The notes beneath the pieces were generated by a model, which was given only the letters and a program-made list of their open reading frames with translations, searched no databases and was not told the DNA's origin. A DNA stretch of 58,171 nucleotides, taken from NCBI GenBank assembly GCA_016191165.1, contig JACPPF010000084.1:1-58171 (forward strand), given 5' to 3'. A program made the translations under genes and the position numbers. Within the stretch, counting starts at the first letter, position 1, and the number at the start of each line of letters is the position of its first letter. This document shows, in pieces, positions 10,882 to 58,033 of this stretch. This stretch comes from Planctomycetota bacterium (GTDB taxonomy: Bacteria; Planctomycetota; Planctomycetia; Gemmatales; Gemmataceae).

Positions 10882-11313
10882 ATGGAACCACTCTCCGAAC
10901 CCAGCATTTGGCAAACCCTCTTGCTGCTTTTTCACACCCTGGGCACGCTGGTGATTCAATTGGCGGCCCTGGGGTATCATCTGCTCCTGTGGATTCTCTT
11001 CGCGGCCTGGTGCCTGTGGGGCATCAACTGGAAGCGCACCCGGCATTTCCTCGCCACCGGCGCGTGGGCGCCGGCGATCCTGTTGATCGTCCTGATCGCC
11101 ATCGTCTGGTCGCGCATCGACCCGAGCCCGTGCGCCCAATGTGGTCTCCCCGCGTTCTGGTGGCAACTTGGTTACGTCTCGATGCTGGCGGCGCTGGCGA
11201 TGTTTTGCGGTTGGATTCAAAACGTCATGCACTGGACGCCGCACGACATTTCCGTCGATCCGCCGGCGCATGGCCACGGCCATGATCACGGGCACAGCCC
11301 CGGGCATCATTGA
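10882..11313 (+). CDS. Small membrane protein with His-rich tail
   Basis: 143 residues with about four hydrophobic segments (TLLLLFHTLGTLVIQLAALG; LLLWILFAAWCLWGI; APAILLIVLIAIVWS; LGYVSMLAALAMFCGW). A CxxC pair lies between them (SPCAQCG, near residue 84). The C-terminal tail HGHGHDHGHSPGHH is typical of metal-binding ends. No family was recognised. Metal handling or a respiratory accessory role would fit the tail and the CxxC, but this is inference. The ATG begins the first membrane segment region, and no other start is nearby. Confidence 0.75.
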   Translation: MEPLSEPSIWQTLLLLFHTLGTLVIQLAALGYHLLLWILFAAWCLWGINWKRTRHFLATGAWAPAILLIVLIAIVWSRIDPSPCAQCGLPAFWWQLGYVSMLAALAMFCGWIQNVMHWTPHDISVDPPAHGHGHDHGHSPGHH

Positions 11314-11326
11314 TTGAAGTCGCCGT

Positions 11327-12544
11327 TCAGCGCGAACCAAACACTTTGACCAGGAACTCCTGCGACTCCTGCCAGCGCTCCACCGCCTTGGCGAAATCCA
11401 CGCGGAGGGCGCGCACGGTCCGCGGCGTCTGGATGGGCGCGAGCGAATCGACCTTCACGTTGGGATTGAGCGGAATCTGCCGACTCGCGGATTTCGCAAG
11501 CTTCATTTCCACTTCCGGGCTCAGAAGATAGTCGATCAGCTTTTTGGCGCCGTTCGGATTGGGGCAGCCCTTGATCATCGCCACGGTGTTGGGGATGAAC
11601 AGCGTGTCGCCGTCGGTGAAGATCATTTTGACGGGGCGGCCTGCCGCGATCTCGGCCATGGCGTCATCGGTATCGGTCAGGCCGACCGCGTAATTGCCCA
11701 TGCCGACCCCGGTGGCCGACTGCTTGTTGCCTCCAACTGGGACGACGCCGTTGGCCTTGAGTTTGCGATAGAAGGCCTGAGTTTTTTCTTTGCCCCAGGA
11801 TTGAAACAAGCAGCTTGCCTGGGTCGCGGTGGTGCCGAAAAGGGGCTTGGCCAAGGCGATCTTGTTCTTCCATTTCGGATCGGTCAGGTCGAAGAGCGTT
11901 TTTGGAAAGTCCTTTTCCGCGACGAGATCCGTGTTGACCAGGAGTACACGTGCCCGGGCGGCGAAGGCGGTCCAGGTCTGGTCGCCGGCCTTGAATTCGG
12001 CAGGGAAAGCGAGGGCCGAAGGGCTTCCATAGGGCTGGAGCAGGCCCTTTTGCTGCAAGCGAATCGTCGCCAGGATTTCGTTGTTCCAGTGGACATCGCA
12101 GCGGGGCTGCGCCGCCTCGCGGATCAGGTCTTCGTAGAGTTGCACGGACTTGTTCGCCTCGGTGTCCCAGCGGACGTCCACCTTGAGACCGGACGCTTTC
12201 TCGAAATCGTTGAAGATGTCCTCGGCGAATTCGCGATCATGGGCGCAGTAGACGACCACGCGTGTCGCCGGTTCACGCTGGCAGCCTGAAAGCAACGCGG
12301 TCGAAGCGAACAACAGACAGGAAACGATAAGCCGGCCCGCGTTATATCGCGGGCGATAAGGCCTGACACGTTTGGCGGCGATACCGTTCGTCGAAGAGCA
12401 CTTGACCAGCCCCCAGCGCAAGCTGGGGGTTTGGGGAGGCTGCCCAAACCCCCACGCTTGCGCGTGGGGCTGGTATCGCTCCGCTTGACGACGCGCGGCT
12501 GCGCCCGCGCTCCCCGTCGGGTCGCGGCTAAACGAATCGGCCAT
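11327..12544 (-). CDS. Iron-type ABC transporter substrate-binding lipoprotein, N-terminus disturbed by repeats
   Basis: A family 1 extracellular solute-binding protein resembling Fe(III)-binding FbpA types: TRVVVYCAHDREFAEDI at the start of the mature part, VGLTDTDDAMAEIAAGRPVK and a C-terminal LIDYLLSPEVEMKLA. A lipoprotein signal (SCLLFASTALLSGC) is present. The only ATG in frame is at 12544, about 80 residues before the signal. The intervening codons come from palindromic repeats, and no ATG or GTG lies between repeat and signal (only a TTG inside the repeat). Either translation starts at 12544 with an unusual extension, or a non-standard start near 12350 is used, or the gene is damaged. 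No permease or ATPase gene is adjacent. Confidence 0.8.
   Translation of the reverse strand: MADSFSRDPTGSAGAAARRQAERYQPHAQAWGFGQPPQTPSLRWGLVKCSSTNGIAAKRVRPYRPRYNAGRLIVSCLLFASTALLSGCQREPATRVVVYCAHDREFAEDIFNDFEKASGLKVDVRWDTEANKSVQLYEDLIREAAQPRCDVHWNNEILATIRLQQKGLLQPYGSPSALAFPAEFKAGDQTWTAFAARARVLLVNTDLVAEKDFPKTLFDLTDPKWKNKIALAKPLFGTTATQASCLFQSWGKEKTQAFYRKLKANGVVPVGGNKQSATGVGMGNYAVGLTDTDDAMAEIAAGRPVKMIFTDGDTLFIPNTVAMIKGCPNPNGAKKLIDYLLSPEVEMKLAKSASRQIPLNPNVKVDSLAPIQTPRTVRALRVDFAKAVERWQESQEFLVKVFGSR
12369..12541. repeat. Composite palindromic element in the 5' part of the lipoprotein gene
   Basis: The left part (TTCGTCGAAGAGCACTTGAC, then an inverted pair CCAGCCCC...GGGGCTGG with inner CCCAAACCCCC) matches the element at 15527. 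The right part (GTCGGGTCGCGGCTAAACGA) is a half of the GTTTAGC family. All of it lies in the open frame of the gene. Confidence 0.8.
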
Positions 12545-12582
12545 TTTTCACCGCGTGGAGTATCGAAGTCATCATGCGTGAA

Positions 12583-13452
12583 CTAGTTGGGCTGCCCGGC
12601 CTTCTCCGCTCGCAGGCTGTCGCGTGGGGAGAAGTATTTGATCAGCTTCACTTCGTTGCCCTTGTCGTTGTAGGCCATCTCGTCCACCAGGCCGCGCGAC
12701 ATCATGATGCCAAAGCCGCCTTCGCGGATGCCCAGCGTTTCGCGAACCATCATGTGGCTGACCGGATCGTCGGGTTTGGCGGCGTGGGGCAGGTTGGCGG
12801 GGCTGAAACCCGGGCCGGTATCCTTGATGTCGATCGTGATCTTTTCCGGATCGATGCGATAATCCACGGTGACGATACGTTCGGTCTGGCGCTGGTGACC
12901 CCATTCGATGGCGTTGGTTCCCAGCTCGCGCACGGCCGTCGTGAACTGCTTGATCTGTTGCTTGGTCATGCCGCTGAACAAGAATAGCGAGCCGAGCAGG
13001 TGGTTTAGCTCTTCCAGGTAATGGGTGTCGCTTTGCAAATGAAAGCGGATTTCGCCCTCGGTGCCGTGTTCCTTGAGGTCTTCGAGCCAGTTCAGGGCGT
13101 TTTGAATCGCCTGGTTGAGTGAGTCGGCCGTGAACGGTTTGGTCAGGTAGGTGTTGGCGCCGACCTGCAAGCCATGCACGCGATCGTCGTGACCGGACAT
13201 CGCGGTGATCATGATGACGGGAATCAGATTGGTGTCGCGGTCCAGCTTCAGCGTTTCGCAGATCGAGTAGCCGTCGATGTCCGGCAGCATGAGGTCGAGC
13301 AGCACGACCTCGGGTTTGTTCTTTTGCACCCACTCGACGACGTGTTTGCCCTCGAACAGCGTCGTGGGTTCGTAGCCCCAGTGCCGCATGTGCTCGGCCA
13401 GGATGAGAGCGAGATCTTGTTCATCATCGACGATCAGAGCCGTGCGTTTCAT
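12583..13452 (-). CDS. Response regulator with C-terminal GHKL (anti-sigma-like) ATPase domain
   Basis: 289 residues. Residues 1-120 are a receiver domain: acidic pair Asp9/Asp10, phospho-acceptor Asp53 in LLDLMLPDIDG, and a TKPF lysine loop. From about residue 150 a histidine-kinase-like ATPase domain follows (TAVRELGTNAIEWGH as N box, IKDTGPGF as G1 box, EGGFGIMMSRGLVDE as G2 region), similar to RsbW/SpoIIAB-type serine kinases. There is no phospho-acceptor His domain. The ATG at 13452 is preferred because GTGAGG precedes it; a GTG four codons earlier is possible. It may control an anti-sigma partner switch, but the partners are not visible. Confidence 0.9.
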   Translation of the reverse strand: MKRTALIVDDEQDLALILAEHMRHWGYEPTTLFEGKHVVEWVQKNKPEVVLLDLMLPDIDGYSICETLKLDRDTNLIPVIMITAMSGHDDRVHGLQVGANTYLTKPFTADSLNQAIQNALNWLEDLKEHGTEGEIRFHLQSDTHYLEELNHLLGSLFLFSGMTKQQIKQFTTAVRELGTNAIEWGHQRQTERIVTVDYRIDPEKITIDIKDTGPGFSPANLPHAAKPDDPVSHMMVRETLGIREGGFGIMMSRGLVDEMAYNDKGNEVKLIKYFSPRDSLRAEKAGQPN

Positions 13453-13618
13453 GATGCGCCTCACGCCGGAACGAGACGGGACTATCCAGCGCCTATTGTT
13501 TCAGTTTTCATGGCAGCGGTCAAGGGGCTAGAATGGAGACACTGCCCTTGGCATGGACGGCGAACATCAAGCGCGGTCTGGACCGGTGATGGGTCGTTGT
13601 CGTATGACGGCGCGGCAG

Positions 13619-14576: not shown

Positions 14577-15494
14577 CTACGCCGCCGGCTCCACCGGTTC
14601 AAGCAGTTCGAGAAACAGCCGGGCGGGAATGGGCAGAACGCGGCGGCGATCCCAGACGACTAGCATCTCGCGCGCGAAGGACATGTTGGCGACCTGAACC
14701 ACAAAAAGTTTTTTGGCGAGAAGCTCGTTCTCGACTGCCCGGGTCGAAAGCACGGTGACGCCCAGGCCGCGTTTGACGGCTTCCTTGATCGCTTCGTTGC
14801 TACCCAGCTCCATGGCGACGCGCAAATTGCGGAGCGACTTGCCGGCTTGCAACAGGGCCTGCTCCAGACAGGACCGCGACGCCGAGCCGACCTCGCGCAC
14901 AATCAACGGCTCCGCCTCCAGCTGGGCCAGTGTGACTTGTTTGAGCTTGCACCACGGATGCTTGGCCGGGACAACCACCGCCAGCTCATCGGTGGCAAAA
15001 ACGCGGAACTCCAGATGTGTGCTGTCTCCGCGCCCCCCGACGAGGCCGAGGTGAACCTGCCCCTGCTCAACCCGTTCCAGAACCTCCGAACTGTCGGTCA
15101 CGGTGGCGCGCAACACCACATGCGGGTGCCGTTCCTGAAATCGCGCGATCAGATCGGGCAACAGATATTCGCCCGGTACCGAACTGGCCGCAAGGATCAA
15201 CTCGCCGTGCAACTTGGTTTCCCGCCCCGTGATCTCGGAAATTGCTTCCCGATGTAATTCCAAAATACGCTGCGCGTAGCCATAGAGGCTCCGCCCGGCC
15301 TCGGTGAGAAGCACATGCCCACCCTGGCGATCAAAAAGCGATTCCTTCAGCACCTTCTCCAGAGCTTGAATGCGCTGGCTTATGGCGGCCTGCGTCATGC
15401 CCAGCGCCCGGCCGGCAGCGGTGAAGCTGCTCAACTCCGCTGCCTTGGCGAAGGTTTCCAGATACGGCAGTTGCTCGGCGTCCATGACGGCCAT
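14577..15494 (-). CDS. LysR family transcriptional regulator
   Basis: 305 residues. The N-terminal winged helix-turn-helix reads LETFAKAAELSSFTAAGRAL and continues MTQAAISQRIQALEKVL. The effector domain follows (GELILAASSVPGEYLLPDLI; LGLVGGRGDSTHLEF), related to CysB/CbbR-like members. The ATG at 15494 gives the usual family length; the frame extends upstream into a repeat. A long inverted repeat (15527-15630) lies in its promoter region. The gene next downstream on the same strand encodes the fatty acid hydroxylase. The effector is unknown. Confidence 0.92.
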   Translation of the reverse strand: MAVMDAEQLPYLETFAKAAELSSFTAAGRALGMTQAAISQRIQALEKVLKESLFDRQGGHVLLTEAGRSLYGYAQRILELHREAISEITGRETKLHGELILAASSVPGEYLLPDLIARFQERHPHVVLRATVTDSSEVLERVEQGQVHLGLVGGRGDSTHLEFRVFATDELAVVVPAKHPWCKLKQVTLAQLEAEPLIVREVGSASRSCLEQALLQAGKSLRNLRVAMELGSNEAIKEAVKRGLGVTVLSTRAVENELLAKKLFVVQVANMSFAREMLVVWDRRRVLPIPARLFLELLEPVEPAA

Positions 15495-15526
15495 TTTATA
15501 CTCCGCGCGGTGAGGAATGGCACATT

Positions 15527-15630
15527 CGTTTGGCCGCAATACGGTTCGTCGAAGAGCACTTGACCAGCCCCCAGCGCAAGTTGGGGGGCTTGGGATCGCT
15601 CCGCTTGACGAACGCCATTGCGCCCAAACG
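15527..15630. repeat. Long inverted-repeat element upstream of the LysR gene
   Basis: Ends CGTTTGGCCGCAATACGGTT and CGCCATTGCGCCCAAACG are inverted repeats of about 24 bp with a few mismatches. The inside (GTCGAAGAGCACTTGACCAG) matches the element at 12369. It looks like a small non-autonomous palindromic element placed 33 bp upstream of the LysR start codon. Confidence 0.8.
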
Positions 15631-54757: not shown

Positions 54758-56047
54758 TTGGCCACCGTCATGCAAAACACCGACATCCAGGTCGGCGTCC
54801 AGGTTTCCATCCTGCAAGATTTGACGCGCACCTACGGCCCGCGCGACTTCACGGTACGCTTCTGGGACGGCACGACCTGGGACGCCGACGCGGGACAGCC
54901 GACGCTCTTCACGCTCGTCCTGAATCACGTCGGCGCGATGCGCAAAATGTTCTTCCCGCCCGGCGTGCTGGCGCTCACGCAGGCCTACCTTTACAATGAC
55001 TTCAACATCAAAGGCGACCTGGTCGCCTTTGGCCGACTGTGCGACTACCTCGATGCGCTCAAGCCTACCCTCTCAATCCTGCAACAGCTGAGCCTCGGGT
55101 ACCGCCTGTGGAAGTTGCCGAAAGTCGATCGCCCGCACGTCGGCAGGCAATCGGCGCAGCTCGACGGCGCGGTCCATTCCCGCCAGCGCGATCGCCAGGC
55201 CATCAGTTACCACTACGATCTCTCCAACGAATACTTCGCGTTCATCCTCGGCCCCCAGATGGTTTACACCAGCGCAATCTTTGATAGCCCCGACGAGGAC
55301 CTGGAGGTCGCGCAAACGCGCAAGCTCGATATCCTGTGCCGAAAGCTCAGGCTTCAGCCGGGCGAGCGCCTCCTCGACATCGGCTGCGGCTGGGGCGGGC
55401 TGGTCATGCACGCCGCCAAACATTACGGCGTGAACGCCCTGGGCATCACGATCAGCGAACGGCAAGCGGAATGGGCGCGCGCCAAAATCCAGGCCGCCGG
55501 CCTGGCGGATCGTTGCCGCGTCGAGCTGGTCGATTATCGCGACGTGGACGAGCGCCAATCGTTTGACAAAATTGTGACCGTTGAGGTGATCGAACACTTC
55601 GGCGCGAAGCAGTTCCCCGTCTTCTTTCAGAAGTGCTGGCGCCTTTTGCGTCCGCAAGGCTCGCTGTTGATCCAGCAGATCACGCAGGCTGACCATTCGC
55701 GCATGACCGGCGCGCTGGAGTTCAACCAGCATTACATCTTTCCCGATGGCGAGCTGGTGTCGATGGGCTTCACGCAGAGTGTGGCCGAGAAGACAGGCTT
55801 TGAAGTGCGCGACATGGAAGGCATCCGCGAGCATTATTGTTTGACGCTGCAGCGCTGGCTGCAAAACGTCGATGCCCACCATGACGAGCTGGTGCGCCTT
55901 ACCGACGAGGCGACTTATCGGGTCTTCCGCCTGCACTACTCGGGCTCGTGGCGCGGGTTCCTCAACAACGTTTACAGCTTACACCAGACGCTGTACGTCA
56001 AACCCGACGGCGGCGCCAGCGGCTACCCGCTGCGCCGCGATGTTTAG
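54758..56047 (+). CDS. Cyclopropane-fatty-acid-phospholipid synthase-like methyltransferase
   Basis: 429 residues. The SAM-binding motif is LLDIGCGWGGLVMHAAKHYG. GITISERQAEWARAKIQAAG and VEVIEHFGAKQFPVFFQKCW are the CFA-family signature strings; SYHYDLSNEYFAFILGPQMV lies just before. It adds a methylene group to unsaturated phospholipid acyl chains. A TTG start at 54758 is preferred, since AAGGAG lies seven bases upstream; ATG at 54770 is the alternative. The stop is the TAG of a GTTTAGC palindrome. Confidence 0.93.
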   Translation: MATVMQNTDIQVGVQVSILQDLTRTYGPRDFTVRFWDGTTWDADAGQPTLFTLVLNHVGAMRKMFFPPGVLALTQAYLYNDFNIKGDLVAFGRLCDYLDALKPTLSILQQLSLGYRLWKLPKVDRPHVGRQSAQLDGAVHSRQRDRQAISYHYDLSNEYFAFILGPQMVYTSAIFDSPDEDLEVAQTRKLDILCRKLRLQPGERLLDIGCGWGGLVMHAAKHYGVNALGITISERQAEWARAKIQAAGLADRCRVELVDYRDVDERQSFDKIVTVEVIEHFGAKQFPVFFQKCWRLLRPQGSLLIQQITQADHSRMTGALEFNQHYIFPDGELVSMGFTQSVAEKTGFEVRDMEGIREHYCLTLQRWLQNVDAHHDELVRLTDEATYRVFRLHYSGSWRGFLNNVYSLHQTLYVKPDGGASGYPLRRDV

Positions 56048-56131
56048 CCGCGATCCGAAGGGGAGCGCGGACCATATCCGCCGCGACGGCAAGGCGTTTA
56101 TCCCGCGCTCCCCTGCGGGTCGCGGCTAAAC
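56042..56131. repeat. GTTTAGC-family palindrome at the end of the methyltransferase gene
   Basis: GTTTAGCCGCGA...CCG and its complement CGG...TCGCGGCTAAAC enclose an inner pair GGGGAGCGCGG / CCGCGCTCCCC. Its GTTTAG contains the gene's stop codon. Confidence 0.9.
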
Positions 56132-56141
56132 GGAGCACGCT

Positions 56142-57530: not shown

Positions 57531-58033
57531 AGGTAGTCCTGACCGTCGCGAACGTATTGAATCGTGGCCTCCAATTGCTCCTGTTTGTTGATAAACCGCT
57601 GGCTGCCGCGTTCGGTCCACTAGTTTTCGCGAACTGGAATGCGGCGACGTGCTGTTTCCAGTTCTTTGAGGCGGCGCGTGCACCATGCCTTCAAGTCGTT
57701 GCGAACGGCCTTGGGGTCTTTGTCCGCCGTGACAACGACGTGTACATGATTCGACCGACAGTTCACCGCATGCAATTCCCAGCCTCGAAACCGGCAGGTT
57801 TCTGCGATTTGCCTCTCGACAAGCTGACGCTGTTCGTGGTCCAGCAGACACGCATCTTCGGTCATTCTCCCGGCCGCTTCCAGTTTTCGAACCGGGTCCG
57901 GGGGCCGCCAACCGTGTCTGTATTCAACCCAGCCGCGGTCGTCGCCCGGAAGCCAAGTGCCGTAGCTAGACCATGTCAAGAAATACGCCAACGGTTCCGG
58001 CATCGGCGGTTCATTCTCTCGATCCTGTTCCAT
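57512..58033 (-). pseudogene. REP-associated tyrosine transposase (RAYT/IS200-like), interrupted by an amber codon
   Basis: The N-terminal two thirds encode an IS200/RAYT-like HUH protein: YFLTWSSYGTWLPGDDRGW and CRSNHVHVVVTADKDPKAV (HUH motif). At 57620-57622 the frame has TAG, followed in the same frame by TGG and WTERGSQRFINKQEQL, ATIQYVRDGQDYLYQPEA and a stop at 57512. Homologues usually have two Trp here, so a TGG-to-TAG change explains the break. The C-terminus, with the likely catalytic tyrosine, is therefore not made unless the amber is read. GGAGG precedes the start at 58033. It lies directly beside its probable REP elements. Confidence 0.87.

Follow-up and report, generated by a model that had tools for sequence, protein, structure and literature searches.

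The gene studied here lies on the minus strand of the window (the whole stretch of 58,171 nucleotides of planctomycete DNA that was analysed), where an open reading frame of 405 aa with an ATG start (11327-12544) encodes a predicted substrate-binding lipoprotein. The frame is open from the ATG at 12544 through repeat DNA up to a lipobox cysteine at residue 88, and the DNA between the stop codon of the upstream response-regulator gene (12583) and the signal is mostly repeat. At the 3' end, 13 bases (11314-11326) separate the gene from a convergent gene for a small His-rich membrane protein (10882-11313). No ABC permease was found among the ORFs beside the lipoprotein gene that were given to Pfam. 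The features of the locus are the following:

12583-13464, minus strand: upstream gene with a response regulator receiver and a HATPase_c_2 domain (Pfam PF00072, PF13581), a conserved neighbour in relatives
12528-12575, minus strand: probable relic of the native start, ATGATG, inferred, now opening a 15-codon dead-end frame (MMTSILHAVKNGRFV and a stop)
12345-12562, minus strand: composite repeat insertion, bounded by TA on either side (from copies L027 and L062-L069)
12492-12562, minus strand: left part of the outer element B, which includes a single REP-like hairpin arm (from copies elsewhere in the genome)
12542-12544, minus strand: ATG start codon supplied by element B within the motif AAATGGC (from copy comparison)
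12365-12491, minus strand: REPIN-like element A, a pair of inverted REP arms, core at 12405-12474 (from dispersed copies; the arms match RAYT-flanking REPs)
12281-12334, minus strand: what is left of the native lipoprotein signal, namely R71, LIVSCLLFASTALL, SG and Cys 88 (hydropathy maximum and lipobox; aligns with the signals of relatives)
11327-12283, minus strand: mature periplasmic substrate-binding domain from Cys 88 (Pfam PF13343, PF13531, PF13416, PF01547)
15498-15627, no strand assigned: second element of the A/B group, directly upstream of a LysR gene (L098, 1472-1601)

Within the first 114 residues the hydropathy maximum is the 14-mer LIVSCLLFASTALL at residue 72, which is followed by SGC. 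The putative lipoprotein signal, as read from the sequence, consists of a basic n-region (AAKRVRPYRPRYNAGR), this h-region and the lipobox SGC; the basic stretch AAKRVRPYRPR in front of the hydrophobic region is partly encoded by the repeat. The initial annotation had described a signal pushed about 80 residues from the start, which is a fair account. From the cysteine onwards 318 mature codons follow without a stop or a frameshift, and PF13343 matches the protein with an E value of 5.8e-22. The closest solved structures by sequence are ferric iron-binding proteins, for example 7w3w (E 3.1e-21) and 3wae, and the earlier label 'iron-type' fits these structures. The best NCBIfam names, however, are those of 2-aminoethylphosphonate-binding (PhnS) models below threshold, and the ligand is putative.

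The insert is a composite of two elements that are dispersed in the genome. Comparison of genome copies indicates that element B begins with TACTCCGCGCG..AAATGGC..CGTTTAGCCGCGACCC, ends with ..AACGTGTCAAACCC..GTGGTA and has TA at both ends, while in element A the two REP-like arms are enclosed by inverted ends (ATACCGTTCGTC..GACGAACGGTAT). By eye, TA is read at both ends in the window copy and in L027, L064, L067 and L069; the right end of L092 is AA, and several other B copies are truncated at one end. In the window the left part of B is joined to the right part of A at 12491/12492, an unusual junction, and the homology with another copy (C47:50199-50253) ends at 12347. The palindrome of A has arms of 32 nt (12405-12436 and 12443-12474) that are 81% complementary, which bears out the earlier observation of a palindromic repeat in the frame. 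Each arm is by eye also a small palindrome of its own; in the predicted whole fold the arms pair with each other, and the hairpin predicted to span the whole insert has a free energy of -126.5 kcal/mol. The annotation's two palindromic elements before the signal are better described as one composite that ends at about 12345 and contains the ATG at 12544.

Elements B and A are both located after the upstream stop codon and before the hydrophobic part of the signal, and the composite is free of stops in that frame. The ATG and roughly the first 66 residues of the lipoprotein frame are repeat DNA. The core of A is stop-free in all six frames, B copy L064 has the ATG and a frame that is open throughout (MALSFSGDPKGSAGAPVRYLARAPLRVAAKRVKPSRKWY), and L062 is open with the ATG but truncated; a frame that runs through the repeats is thus to be expected and is not in itself evidence for coding. 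Many other ORFs beside A or B copies are open through the element as well. The ATG is identical in B copies L062, L063, L064 and L027 and altered in L065 and L067; methionine occupies the matching place of the B peptide also in L191, L193 and L211. Stops interrupt the frame in L063 and L069/L191.

The window copy of A differs from the consensus of 30 copies at 1 of 113 positions (the others at 0 to 11), a closeness that is partly built in because the 30 were chosen as best matches to the window copy, and it is 99% identical over 105 nt to a copy on another contig (C118). Judged by its sequence, the inner element A looks young. For B the window part differs at 6 of 61 positions from a consensus of seven other anchored copies, from which the window and L063 (shifted by indels) were left out. 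These seven themselves differ at 1 to 11 positions, so that the age of B can hardly be read from this value. The order of arrival may have been B, then A, which is a weak suggestion since the A copies were picked by their similarity to the window.

Searches of the source genome with 12395-12485 gave 159 first-look candidates, of which 40 were scored and yielded 51 matches, 11 of them the same palindromes read in reverse. With 12483-12554, 40 of 147 candidates were scored and 58 matches were obtained, many of them only to the REP arm of about 30 nt. The 127-nt stretch of A had matches in four of 41 genomes, the source genome included; three of these four belong to the same genus, and the matches outside the source genome are weak. 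Two transposase families, PF13358 and Y1_Tnp (PF01797), were searched. An IS630-type mobiliser was considered for the TA-ended element B and discarded: PF13358 (IS630-like DDE_3) had no match in the source draft, while the control matched in 3 of 14. Y1_Tnp had 11 matches, and one of the ten loci examined is flanked by arms of A. This gene (C104:11668-11886, L219; 151 residues from the codon after the ATG) scores above the Pfam cut-off. Five matches to the arms of A surround it within about 700 nt: two, as an inverted pair, immediately precede its start, and the other three immediately follow its stop. REPs on both sides are the usual arrangement of a RAYT gene, and the L219 RAYT is the probable mobiliser of element A. 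Of the other loci, L221 has B-type REPs about 1.4 kb away and L216 a single 13-nt match; the remaining seven have no A or B REP match nearby. The window itself contains a clean, REPIN-like inverted pair of B-type REPs at 56042-56132. A region from 57548 to 57844, plus flanks to 58171, contains what remains of a Y1_Tnp (RAYT) gene, with a TAG in its frame, next to a further repeat (gaagcgtaagcgaggg / cttacgcttcgggctt) that is perhaps a REP family of its own.

A match to the binding protein was present in 66 of the 99 genomes searched, including the source genome, where 18 of 193 candidates were scored in the homologue search. The nearest named relative found is the Gemmataceae metagenome-assembled genome Baikal-deep-G160, with 76% identity to the binding protein. 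In the five closest relatives (G006, G001, G003, G005 and G010) the homologue starts with an ATG, behind which comes a short signal in four and a membrane segment in G010, and the long leader is absent from all five. The ATG of G006 lies 12 nt past the stop of the neighbouring gene; in G003 and G005 the gap is about 100 nt. By tblastn the response-regulator gene was found beside the homologue in L033-L036, with 72-78% identity over nearly the full length, and at L032/L111 (G006, Baikal-deep-G160) the match covers only the C-terminal 76 residues, as if the gene were truncated or replaced upstream. The insertion-free copy for which the initial annotation had suggested a search is therefore present in relatives behind the same response-regulator gene, and the long N-terminus without repeats that it had named as counter-evidence occurs in none of the five.

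The conserved neighbourhood bears on the reading in which the locus is an assembly artefact, where short reads from two loci would have been fused at a repeat of high copy number, or part of this repeat collapsed. The source genome is a 7.2-Mb draft of 183 contigs, the near-identity of the inner repeat to another copy over 105 nt would permit such a join, and the B/A junction is the kind of oddity that it could leave. Against this, the response-regulator gene (in G006 its C-terminal part) adjoins the homologue in all five closest relatives, so that the two flanks belong together, and we regard an artefact as highly improbable.

Where translation could begin is restricted. The starts of table 11 in frame before Cys 88 are ATG 12544 and three TTGs (12421, 12313 and 12295). 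Apart from ATG 12544 the lipoprotein frame has no ATG or GTG before the cysteine; the first GTG, 12259 (residue 96), comes after it, one residue before the first Pfam stretch. It had been claimed that neither codon lies between the repeat and the signal, which proved correct, and there is no ATG or GTG near 12350, where a usable start would have spoken against the annotation's reading. The codon at 12544 is preceded by GGTGA and has an unpaired probability of 0.59 in the predicted fold, whereas the three TTGs, at 0.00-0.03, are predicted to be buried in structure. A start at a non-ATG codon in or after the insert, TTG 12421 or a rarer codon, would shorten the leader. TTG is a legal start in table 11, and 12421 (residue 42) would give a stretch of 47 residues through Cys 88; this codon, however, sits in the REP hairpin with an unpaired probability of 0.00, the 18 bases before it have no clear ribosome-binding site, and with the two later TTGs the stretch through the cysteine would shrink to 11 or 5 residues. 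The non-standard start offered by the initial annotation is thus weakly possible, and we consider it improbable. The odd N-terminal extension is the best supported of its three options, since the ATG and the following residues to about 66 are repeat DNA.

The native start was probably the ATGATG at 12575, which would be its relic. It sits 7 nt past the stop of the response-regulator gene, close to where the genes of G006 and G001 start, and the G001 homologue likewise has an ATGATG near its signal. Mean unpaired probabilities from -20 to +12 are 0.58 and 0.61 for the ATGs at 12575 and 12572 vs 0.42 for ATG 12544; the region around these two codons is the more open one, the distance to the preceding stop is shorter, and they may therefore capture ribosomes. 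A simple history of clean insertion does not close and was rejected, and with it any claim to the ancestral sequence: when 216 nt are excised from TA to TA, the ATGATG and the signal are in different frames, and the frame of the signal has no start codon left ahead of it. Either an additional small indel or a different native start is needed.

The lipoprotein gene is unusual among genes beside copies of these elements. At 63 element places examined, a score of at least 55 was reached by 46 ORFs that lead out of an element. Of these, 40 were sent to Pfam (the lipoprotein and five others were left out), and 28 had a match above the cut-off. All 28 have an ATG or GTG between the element and the domain, although the rule for leaving admits frames that are open to within 200 nt and not all 28 are truly adjacent. 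The lipoprotein passes the same rule only by GTG 12259, beyond its lipobox; a gene with no ATG or GTG of its own before the signal is therefore exceptional in this set. With the B peptide as query 26 matches were obtained, and 16 of them were looked at more closely. Many of these frames end within about 60 codons, and among the 16 no gene was shown to need the B peptide, the long continuations L196, L197, L199 and L207 aside. The only other examined match with an ATG and a long continuation, L193 (486 codons), was dismissed as a shadow frame: the other strand carries a DUF1501 gene (PF07394, E 9.4e-144), which scores 143 vs 88. L198 had been considered as another gene starting at the element's ATG and was likewise set aside, as its frame runs on into a gene that has an ATG of its own immediately beyond the element. 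Nor did the idea hold that A lies inside many genes: in an informal reading of coding scores at 30 copies the coding part was mostly on one side of the element. Within the window the LysR gene (14577-15539) keeps its own ATG just outside the element at 15498-15627; its listed TTG start (MRPNECAIPHRAEYKMAVMDAEQ) is probably false, this ATG being the likely true start.

We assume that a small non-autonomous palindromic element entered the lipoprotein gene at its first codons, and that translation, if any, starts at the repeat's ATG 12544; on the evidence above we hold this to be moderately probable. The inner element would have been moved by the L219 RAYT, whose gene has the same REPs on both sides. 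The insertion would have cut the native start, probably the ATGATG at 12575, off from the signal, and any product would begin at ATG 12544 with a leader of about 66 repeat-encoded residues, which places about 70 extra residues before the hydrophobic part of a signal that is otherwise normal for a lipoprotein. Leaders of such length are rare in signal peptides. In lipoprotein maturation signal peptidase II removes everything before the lipobox cysteine, a leader included. If the enzyme cuts before Cys 88, the leader would be lost together with the signal peptide, leaving the mature lipoprotein as it was; lower expression or slower export would be the likely price of the leader. The case is an uncommon but explainable accident and not a new kind of gene. 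In a stronger version the outer element B would be a portable gene start: an intact copy, with its ATG and a frame that stays open to the far end, could take the place of a lost start if it arrives at a 5' end in the proper orientation and frame, and would here have rescued the lipoprotein, leaving the mature protein unharmed. This can be put forward only tentatively, and the other B copies that have lost the ATG or hold stops make it slightly less probable.

Alternatively, the gene may be dead or nearly so, its native start removed and its product unmade or unexported, with decay that is not yet visible. The only ATG or GTG before the signal is the repeat's own, the hairpin predicted over the whole insert is strong, and the near-identity of A to its consensus and to the C118 copy means that the insertion event may be young. 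The protein sequence points the other way. In a comparison that used 19 of 29 relative loci as homologues, 66 of 68 near-invariant columns are kept in the window protein, and its specific substitutions against those of G006, with five outgroups, number 27:23 (with G001), 24:22, 24:22, 22:13 and 17:20. Against G006, NG86 gives a dN of 0.19 and a dS of 1.47, the latter near saturation. For the response regulator the corresponding values are 2 window-specific substitutions vs 18 and 2 vs 13, G006 being the faster, over the C-terminal 76 residues of G006 only. The domain is intact, its 318 mature codons are uninterrupted, and judging from the substitutions in the lipoprotein it is not clearly accelerated relative to its sister. 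Decay is not visible, but most of this record, including the conserved columns and the substitution ratios, may predate the insert. The earlier suggestion that the gene is losing function thus finds no echo in the sequence of the domain and some in the youthful look of the inner repeat; a dead gene is, in our opinion, possible but doubtful.

Under the preferred explanation, insertion of an element with translation from its ATG, a REPIN-type element at the 5' end appears to supply the start of a gene. The locus is a concrete, testable case of a REPIN- or MITE-type element taking over a start codon. A secreted protein might tolerate a junk leader because signal peptidase removes it, and this, if shown, would help to explain how 'extragenic' repeats survive on top of gene starts. 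Automatic annotation may also wrongly extend the N-termini of such proteins by a long stretch. In the open-access literature we found neither a description of these repeats in planctomycetes nor a paper on REPs that provide an N-terminal extension.

Several known systems invite comparison. The binding protein resembles periplasmic iron-binding proteins of the FbpA type, with 7w3w and 3wae as closest structures by sequence only, and differs from them in its best NCBIfam names, the sub-threshold PhnS models. Element A resembles the REPIN/RAYT system in its two inverted REP arms with a spacer, its many copies and the arms that flank a Y1_Tnp gene; REPs, for which end-tag families such as GTAG and CGTC are described in part of one account (PMC3733652), are named as extragenic, whereas this copy of A lies inside the only long open frame at the 5' end of a gene. 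Rickettsia palindromic elements are described, in the portion of the source that bears on them, as in-frame insertions in genomic ORFs with a conserved peptide (PMC10969869), and the present element is similar in being small, palindromic and open in frame and in adding residues to an unrelated gene. Recurrent in-frame insertion with a conserved peptide was not seen here, as all 28 Pfam-supported ORFs have an ATG or GTG outside the element; in our case the element occupies the 5' end and provides the start codon, an effect found in one gene among the copies examined. The QMITE1 and QMITE2 elements of Coxiella burnetii overlap genes, some with short open frames, and do not appear, in the part of the study that treats this, to affect the 5' ends of genes of known function (PMC5896051). 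In the lipoprotein gene described here, it is the 5' end that is affected.
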